NCBI RefSeq assembly: GCF_032118995.1
Contig: NC_092663.1
Span: 5,084,001 to 5,148,000, forward strand
Length of the DNA: 64,000 nucleotides
From: Asterias amurensis
Lineage: Eukaryota; Echinodermata; Asteroidea; Forcipulatida; Asteriidae
Direction of reading: 5' to 3'
The first letter of the stretch is position 1. The number at the start of each line of letters is the position of its first letter. The position numbers and the translations under genes were made by a program. This document shows positions 35,686 through 37,316 of the stretch, piece by piece. Under the pieces are notes generated by a model. It made no database searches. It saw only the letters and a program-made list of their open reading frames with translations, and was not told the DNA's origin.

Positions 35686-37316
35686 ATGGGGGCACTCCAT
35701 GCTGTACTCAAGAACTTCTTCAGTAAGAAAGAAATGAGAATACTTATGGTCGGACTGGATGCTGCAGGAAAGACCACTATTCTCTATAAACTCAAACTAG
35801 GCGAGATTGTTACCACCATACCAACAATTGGTAAGTACATGTACATGTATTGTTGGTATACAAGGCCAGTTCCTTCAGTTGGATTGCACATAGCATCATC
35901 GACCGCCATAATTATTTGATGATTATCACTGGGCACAACTCTCGGCCAAAATATCCTTGCACGCATACACGGTTCATCAAAGACGGTGGTCAATGATGTC
36001 ATGTGCAATCCGTCTATGGGTTTACCTTCAAACCATCCACTGTAGCTCTCAACAATATTCATCCAATAAGAAATGGCTGGTTTCTGTAAATAAGAAAAGT
36101 TTGTAATGAAAATCTGATTTAAGGTAGATAGGCGTTTCTCGTAATATAGGAACTCTGCTGAAGGCAACACTGAGGCGTGCCTGAGAGTTCTTGACCCCAT
36201 TCCTCATGGGCATGTCGATAAATAAATGGATTCAGCTTCTAATTTCGGGGGGTGAAAATCCAAACCATCATCTTAGAAGATATTTGTTTATGTTATCAAC
36301 ATATGCGGTGCAATTAAGTTTTTATGGTTTAATTTGTGGAGTCCAATCTTTGAACCTTGGTTCCCTATGACCCTAATGTTCTTTGGTTTTTTGAATTCTT
36401 TTTTTCCTTTTTTGTACAGGATTCAATGTAGAAACAGTTGAGTATAAAAATATCAGCTTCACAGTTTGGGATGTCGGTGGTCAAGACAAAATAAGGCCCC
36501 TGTGGCGTCATTACTTCCAAAACACACAAGGTGAGTAAAACAATTCCTTCAAAAATTAAACGAAAGTTGTTCACTCTCGAATCTACAAACATTATTTCAG
36601 AAAGTAAACTTTTTTCTTTTTTTCACGTACACAGGACCAGAACAAAACTCATGTTTATATCTCACTCCTGTTTCTTCTTCTAGGTTTGATATTTGTGGTG
36701 GATAGTAATGACAGGGAAAGAGTTGGTGAAGCACGAGATGAATTGGCGAGGATGTTGAACGAGGATGAACTCAGAGATGCACACGTCCTTGTCTTTGCCA
36801 ACAAACAGGTAGGCCTACTTTGATTACAGCGTGTTATGTTGTACACAATGGGAGTCAGCCGTCGATTTTACAAAGAGTTAGGACTCGTCTTATCTCGAGT
36901 TAGGACGAGTAACTCGTCCTAACTTAGGATTAATCTTAAGGTCTGCATGCTACAGTGCAGGGCTGGGACTCGTCCTAAGTCATGAGATTAATCCCAAGTT
37001 AGGAAGAGTTTTGTGAAATCTAAAAAGGGCTCTTTCTTCTATTGCCCCCCAAGATGTGGACTGTCTTAAAAGCAGAGAAAGTCAAAAAGACAAAACTTAG
37101 GTCTAAAAGGAGACTAACAAGTTTATAATAATGTCCTTTGACTTTTCTTTTCAGGATCTTCCAAATGCAATGTCAGCTCAAGAAATCACTGAAAAATTGG
37201 GTCTTCACGAACTGCGAGGGCGCCCGTGGCATATCCAAGCAGCATGTGCTACAAGCGGGGATGGTTTGTATGAAGGACTAGACTGGCTTTCTCAGTCCTT
37301 AAAAGAAAAGAAATAG
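35686..37316 (+). CDS. Class I-like ADP-ribosylation factor, copy B (complete, divergent)
   Basis: ARF GTPase of 180 aa. Exons: 35686-35830, 36420-36530, 36684-36808 and 37155-37316, at the same intron positions and phases as the other three copies. The P-loop [17 protein letters not shown] and CATSG are intact and Gly2 is present. It differs from the others in its N-terminal helix ([12 protein letters not shown]), in exon 3 (RDAHVLVF) and around the start of its last third ([15 protein letters not shown], where the others have [15 protein letters not shown]). Exons 1 and 3 are strongly diverged at silent sites from copy A, yet exon 2 differs by only 4 of 111 bases. Its 5' untranslated sequence, beginning at 35621, is unrelated to that of A, C and D. 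The probable poly(A) signal AATAAA is at 37471-37476. Confidence 0.95.
36859..37025. mobile_element. MITE-like palindromic repeat in ARF copy B intron 3
   Basis: Begins GTCGATTTTACAAAGAGTTA and ends near AGTTTTGTGAAATC. The interior is made of repeated GTTAGGACGAGT and ACTCGTCCTAA words in both orientations. It belongs to the same family as the element at 33348-33466, with more internal repeats. Confidence 0.6.

Follow-up and report, generated by a model that had tools for sequence, protein, structure and literature searches.

In yeast, 24 pairs of ribosomal-protein ohnologs have conserved exons and largely non-homologous introns (PMC2728529). As described there, silent divergence in the exons is low, and the introns are unrelated apart from brief similarity next to the splice junctions. 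Conservation extends over the entire coding region in these pairs, and selection on codon usage is part of the explanation (PMC2728529). In cattle, gene conversion drives a mosaic concerted evolution of the clustered CEACAM1 paralogs, and its effect is greater on exons than on introns (PMC7042247). Among the ADP-ribosylation factors (ARFs), Arf1 is often found in multiple copies, and Arf4 and TRIM23 are offshoots of Arf1/6-like genes (PMC8358228). The main text of that work never uses the term “gene conversion.”

The locus described here is a tandem cluster of four ARF genes in the sea star Asterias amurensis. It resembles the yeast pairs in its low exonic silent divergence next to unrelated introns, but only one of its four exons is conserved, whereas the others are far diverged at silent sites. 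Like the cattle genes, it would be a clustered family in which gene conversion causes mosaic concerted evolution; in cattle, however, 23 events were reported by GENECONV, and the diverged CEACAM32 was converted in its leader exon and introns, not in its Ig-domain exons (PMC7042247). The likeness to the duplicated class I ARFs (ARF1 group) of PMC8358228 lies in the ARF1-type GTPases themselves, as judged by Pfam for copies A and B and by the closest structures for copy B, and the difference lies in the tandem cluster of four with one homogenized exon. In titles and the first parts of abstracts, the literature on echinoderm ARF duplication and on sea star gene conversion held nothing on this cluster. 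Such a conversion would be an ordinary kind of event, unusual here only in how closely one exon is kept to.

The ARF Cluster

The window, which is the whole stretch of DNA analyzed (64,000 nucleotides, C16:5084001-5148000), belongs to a genome of 491,506,623 bases in 23 contigs. Four ARF genes with open reading frames, each made up of four exons, lie within 30-52 kb of it, with A, B, and C on the plus strand and D inverted. Copy A spans 30138-32577 (exons 30138-30282, 30665-30775, 31521-31645, and 32416-32577), copy C spans 41865-43954 (exons 41865-42009, 42446-42556, 43200-43324, and 43793-43954), and copy D occupies 49146-51522 of the minus strand (exons 51522-51378, 50727-50617, 49920-49796, and 49313-49146). 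The full Arf domain (PF00025) is found in both copies scanned, A (E 9.8e-82) and B (E 6.9e-81), whose proteins are identical at 154/180 residues. When compared with the PDB, copy B scores 333.6 bits against the best ARF1 entry, followed by ARF3 (320.9), ARF5 (309.2), ARF4 (302.8), and ARF6 (276.9). By its sequence, copy B is classed as a class I ARF of the ARF1 group, nearer to ARF1/ARF3 than to ARF4/5 or ARF6; copies A, C, and D are presumed to be class I as well, from the similarity of their proteins to B.

Copies A (30040-30317) and D (51343-51620) have 278 bases in common at 95%, in inverted orientation and including the leader upstream of exon 1, which indicates either a recent duplication or further conversion. 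Intron 2 of copy D contains an array at 49941-50366 with a unit of roughly 16 bp, and a large direct-repeat array with a unit of about 45-46 bp is found at 18854-21526. Predicted tRNA-Asp (gtc) genes are embedded in tandem repeats of ~150 bp at 2598-2825 (two, minus strand) and at 63148-63977 (six, plus strand). These tRNA-Asp repeat regions, at both ends of the window, form inverted-repeat arms that are 85-97% complementary among the arms listed.

Another contig carries a further tandem cluster, made up of ARF-like (ARL-type) genes (G000:C1:15455000-15494999, L032-L035), with the first matched exon present at four places. The copies of that cluster (15.455-15.495 Mb) are ~71-72% alike in this exon, and a coarse comparison found no single homogenized exon among them. 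Beyond this genome, ARF queries found no relatives in viral_contigs and none in plasmids at E 1e-5; in genome_contigs they retrieved one ARL-like contig, from a bacterial MAG (L031), which did not enter the comparisons.

Silent Divergence Exon by Exon

Exon 2 of copy B (36420-36530, plus strand, as for all parts of this gene) encodes the GTPase switch region; it begins at the second base of codon 49 and ends with the first base of codon 86. Copies A and B differ at 43/145 nucleotides in exon 1 (35686-35830 in B), at 4/111 in exon 2, at 27/125 in exon 3 (36684-36808), and at 53/162 in exon 4 (37155-37316). The four exon 2 differences, at codons 55, 57, 73, and 78, are all silent, as are the six that separate B from C and the five that separate B from D; the remaining pairs differ there at five (A-C), two (A-D), and four (C-D) positions. 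An earlier note on this DNA had given the same exon 2 counts for A-B and A-C, had counted about 26 differences, all silent, over 106 positions in the conserved part of exon 1, and had found exon 3 diverged as well. All of these counts were reproduced, with 0 amino acid changes between A and B in codons 14-48. The note's view that protein constraint is not the cause also holds, because these exon 1 codons are just as unchanged in protein and nevertheless silently diverged.

To count silent changes, codons for the same amino acid were compared over codons 1-175, with Met and Trp excluded; the codons after 175 were left out because the C-terminus of D differs. Between A and B, 25/37, 4/35, 17/36, and 19/33 of these codons differ in exons 1-4, respectively, which makes 4/35 in exon 2 against 61/106 in the other exons (Fisher p 1.3e-6). 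The other two pairs with B behave in the same way, with 26/38, 6/35, 14/33, and 24/34 for B-C (exon 2 vs. rest, p 1.0e-5), and 25/37, 5/35, 15/35, and 20/34 for B-D (p 1.1e-5). Among A, C, and D there is no exon effect, the same comparison giving p 0.62 for A-C, 0.17 for A-D, and 0.45 for C-D. Fourfold sites agree, with A-B counts of 13/18, 2/13, 7/10, and 10/17 in exons 1-4. The homogeneity of exon 2 in copy B is therefore real. Within this otherwise nearly invariant exon, no two of the four copies agree in the third base of codon 55 (Val).

The Arf4-like and TRIM23-like Genes

Two other genes of the same genome, on contigs C2 (L025) and C13 (L016/L017), served as outgroup paralogs. From family features, we take them to be Arf4-like and TRIM23-like, respectively. 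In each, one exon has the same start as exon 2. The TRIM23-like gene also shares its 3′ border, which in the Arf4-like gene, with the splice site as read, comes one base sooner. The Arf4-like comparison covers codon 22 onward and stops short of the C-terminal end, which was not located. Over exons 1-4, silent differences from it are 11/26, 15/31, 18/30, and 7/9 for copy A, and 16/26, 15/31, 22/31, and 7/12 for copy B. Exon 2 is at 15/31 to 16/31 across A-D (exon 2 vs. rest, p 0.13-0.67). The TRIM23-like comparison, confined to exons 1-3, gives 13/22, 13/26, and 13/24 for A and 11/22, 13/26, and 11/23 for B, with exon 2 at 13/26 to 14/26 across A-D (p 0.45-1.0). Exon 2 codons that are identical in all four copies are silently different at 10/24 in the Arf4-like gene and at 10/21 in the TRIM23-like gene. 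Here are two paralogs with a matching exon 2 and without slow silent evolution in it.

Outside exon 2, the silent divergence of B from A, C, and D is about as large as that of these two genes. The contrast in which B is near to its neighbors in exon 2 only and the outgroup is not was supported by an interaction test in all six combinations of reference and outgroup (p 0.004-0.028), and by a codon bootstrap (P 0.0000-0.0115 over the same number), these combinations being non-independent.

Constraint or Conversion

A constraint at the nucleotide level could also keep exon 2 alike, for instance a splicing-enhancer or mRNA-level signal in class I ARF exon 2 of this lineage, the few free silent sites being saturated. 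Since silent sites of exon 2 are free to diverge in the Arf4-like and TRIM23-like genes, any such constraint must be specific to class I. Four models were compared by maximum likelihood on third positions: no exon effect, conversion, scaling of exon 2, and frozen (invariant) silent sites. With the two outgroups included, their log-likelihoods were -506.2, -497.5, -501.4, and -503.9, respectively, placing conversion ahead of scaling by 3.9 and of frozen sites by 6.4 log units; the combined models reached -497.2 (conversion plus scaling) and -496.8 (conversion plus frozen sites). With A-D only, the values were -364.9 for no effect, -356.0 for conversion, -358.3 for scaling, and -353.8 for frozen sites. 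Here the best of the three one-parameter models is the one with frozen sites (68% of silent sites), 2.2 log units above conversion with an equal number of parameters, and this favors constraint. Conversion plus scaling reached -355.7, and adding conversion to frozen sites (-353.4) brought little gain over frozen sites alone.

Under conversion without frozen sites, the fitted exon 2 branches are 0.17-0.19 for B, 0.14-0.16 for A, 0.13-0.15 for C, and 0.08 for D; in the plain conversion fits, those of A and C are 0.14-0.15 and 0.13-0.14. When frozen sites are also allowed, the B branch in exon 2 becomes 0.20 with outgroups and 0.67 without them. In the other exons, its fitted length is 0.7-1.6. 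An HKA-like table counts 2 fixed and 5 variable silent codons in exon 2, against 41 and 26 in the other exons; this points toward conversion, not significantly so (Fisher p 0.12, or 0.07 against exon 1 alone).

The varied third base of codon 55, among the variable codons of exon 2, is what one would expect of a few saturated free sites, and short islands of homology are poor substrates for conversion (PMC3924818); both points favor constraint. On the other side, exon 2 is not significantly less variable at silent sites among A, C, and D than the rest (5/35 vs. 26/102 codons, p 0.24). The predicted RNA fold of exon 2 is no better than that of shuffled sequences in any copy (z 0.04 to 1.52), the folds are dissimilar between copies, and Rfam gave 0 matches at gathering scores in 29500-52500. 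A second coding frame is also contradicted for most frames, as stops interrupt both alternative sense frames of exon 2, and two of its three antisense frames, in all four copies. The remaining antisense frame (minus strand of 36420-36530, and the same stretch in A, C, and D) is open over 36 codons in all four; this is weak evidence of coding since the protein is identical, and the open frame is probably a by-product of that identity. A search of the literature for synonymous constraint in ADP-ribosylation factor exons found nothing. The earlier note had offered nucleotide-level constraint, such as an RNA element, as the alternative to conversion. Its RNA element finds no backing in fold or Rfam match, and frozen silent sites keep that of the A-D likelihoods. 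Taken as a whole, we consider constraint on exon 2 unlikely.

Limits of the Tract

The segment of low divergence was delimited by a free scan over the coding sequence, with codon order permuted in 2000 shuffles (the floor of p being 1/2001 = 0.0005). For A-B the best segment is codons 48-89 (lnLR 16.5, p 0.0005, at the floor), for B-C codons 49-102 (p 0.0005), and for B-D codons 48-101 (p 0.001). The three pairs among A, C, and D gave no significant tract (p 0.10-0.78). Within 2 log units, the start falls at codons 44-50 (A-B), 48-51 (B-C), and 47-50 (B-D), and exon 1 of B is diverged up to its last codons. The end is looser, at codons 87-102, 88-103, and 88-102 for the same pairs, and it may enter exon 3. 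Between A and B, silent differences in exon 3 are 5/15 in codons 87-102 vs. 12/20 in codons 103-127. The first of these values, set against 56/89 in all other segments outside exon 2, gives p 0.046 for a segment that was picked after seeing the data, and a change point within exon 3 finds no significant support (permutation p 0.21, 0.38, and 0.26 for the three pairs with B). Conversion had earlier been described as confined to exon 2. At the 5′ end this holds to within a few codons, while on the 3′ side the tract may extend into the first 16 codons of exon 3, whose divergence is intermediate.

At E<=0.01, blastn found nothing in the introns of A, C, and D that matches those of copy B. For intron 2 (36531-36683, 153 bp) this is the case immediately past the splice donor: in bases 9-40 after exon 2, aligned without gaps, B matches the others at 9-12/32 positions, whereas A, C, and D match one another at 22-23/32. 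The start of intron 2 was matched by blastn in A-D (first 39 bases, 92%) and A-C (first 31, 90%), and C-D gave a match of 165 bases at 73%. Since the 3′ intron of B is unmatched, the low-divergence tract does not continue into intron 2. Any reach into intron 1 (35831-36419) cannot be read, because upstream of exon 2 and past the splice signal even A, C, and D match at only 11-18/30 positions. Codons 49-54 and 79-85 have zero differences between A and B, and therefore the ends of the exon would be converted too.

These limits, at or near splice junctions, might also suit a spliced message. Conversion templated by RNA or cDNA would give a tract collinear with that message, one that takes in exon 2 and may extend over the first 16 codons of exon 3, with the introns of B spared. 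It is a special form of conversion whose probability we weigh separately. The tract limits at or near splice junctions are consistent with it, as are the B-C and B-D segments, which extend to codons 102 and 101 past an unrelated intron 2, and the lower A-B divergence of codons 87-102. A cDNA template, however, is usually expected to remove introns, and those of B remain; the change point inside exon 3 is not significant, and conversion at the DNA level, limited by homology, would yield the same picture. We hold an RNA or cDNA template to be very unlikely. If it were true, it would mean repair from an RNA-derived template that spares introns, in an animal germline.

Sharp limits, and nothing else, would also fit an assembly or polishing artifact in which B received exon 2 of A, C, or D, or the insertion of a second exon 2 that replaced the old one. 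Exon 2 of B, however, is identical to no other copy (4-6 differences), it sits between introns specific to B with frame and splice sites kept, and the published A. amurensis assembly was made from HiFi reads (PMC10625585), which argues against an artifact. Either origin is scarcely credible. A relic or inserted exon was sought in B with ARF peptides, and tblastn found no match at E<0.28 in its introns and the 999 bases upstream; the best match anywhere in the 12 introns of A-D is in intron 2 of A (E 0.036, 19 residues, 32%).

A Proposed Model of Interlocus Conversion

The local silent homogeneity and its sharp 5′ limit within the coding sequence, next to introns of B without detectable homology, are probably the outcome of interlocus gene conversion in the tandem ARF1 array. 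The earlier note had called gene conversion the simplest reading. It is now better supported, given outgroups that diverge in exon 2 and the lack of an RNA element, although the likelihoods from A-D only favor frozen sites by 2.2 log units. In the proposed model, B would be an old class I ARF paralog whose introns no longer match those of A, C, and D. Interlocus conversion within the tandem array would later have overwritten exon 2 in B or in the ancestor of A, C, and D. From the fitted branches, the event would date to about the separation of A, C, and D, and would be young relative to the B branch in the other exons. Homology-directed repair limited to the exon, in a single event, may have been the mechanism, and the tract would stop at the exon because only exons still matched.

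The candidate partners are exon 2 of A (30665-30775, plus strand), of C (42446-42556, plus strand), and of D (50617-50727, minus strand), all within about 15 kb of exon 2 of B. In a search of the genome they match it at 95-96% over 128-129/146 bases, and the only other match among those listed is the TRIM23-like gene, at 73%. The codons that copy B has in common with A, C, or D show no pattern, and no donor is singled out.

The weak point of the conversion reading is the size of the substrate. Gene conversion usually needs ~200 bp of homology at >80% identity, and between shorter, less similar pairs it can occur infrequently (PMC3924818). The present-day homology consists of the 111-bp exon and its splice signals, below this typical, though not strict, size. 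If exon 2 resembled the conserved part of exon 1 before the event, its identity would have been ~75%, under the usual 80%. Also counting against conversion are the ends of the exon (codons 49-54 and 79-85), which would have to be converted as well, the want of a favored donor, and the ARL-type cluster, where the coarse comparison showed no exon homogenized by itself.

Conclusions

If constraint were the explanation, exon 2 of class I ARFs would carry an unrecognized signal at the nucleotide level. If conversion is the explanation, then one exon of a diverged paralog can be reset while the other exons and the introns keep drifting, and silent divergence taken over the whole gene misdates such duplicates. 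In that case, the switch regions of these GTPases can stay identical across copies.
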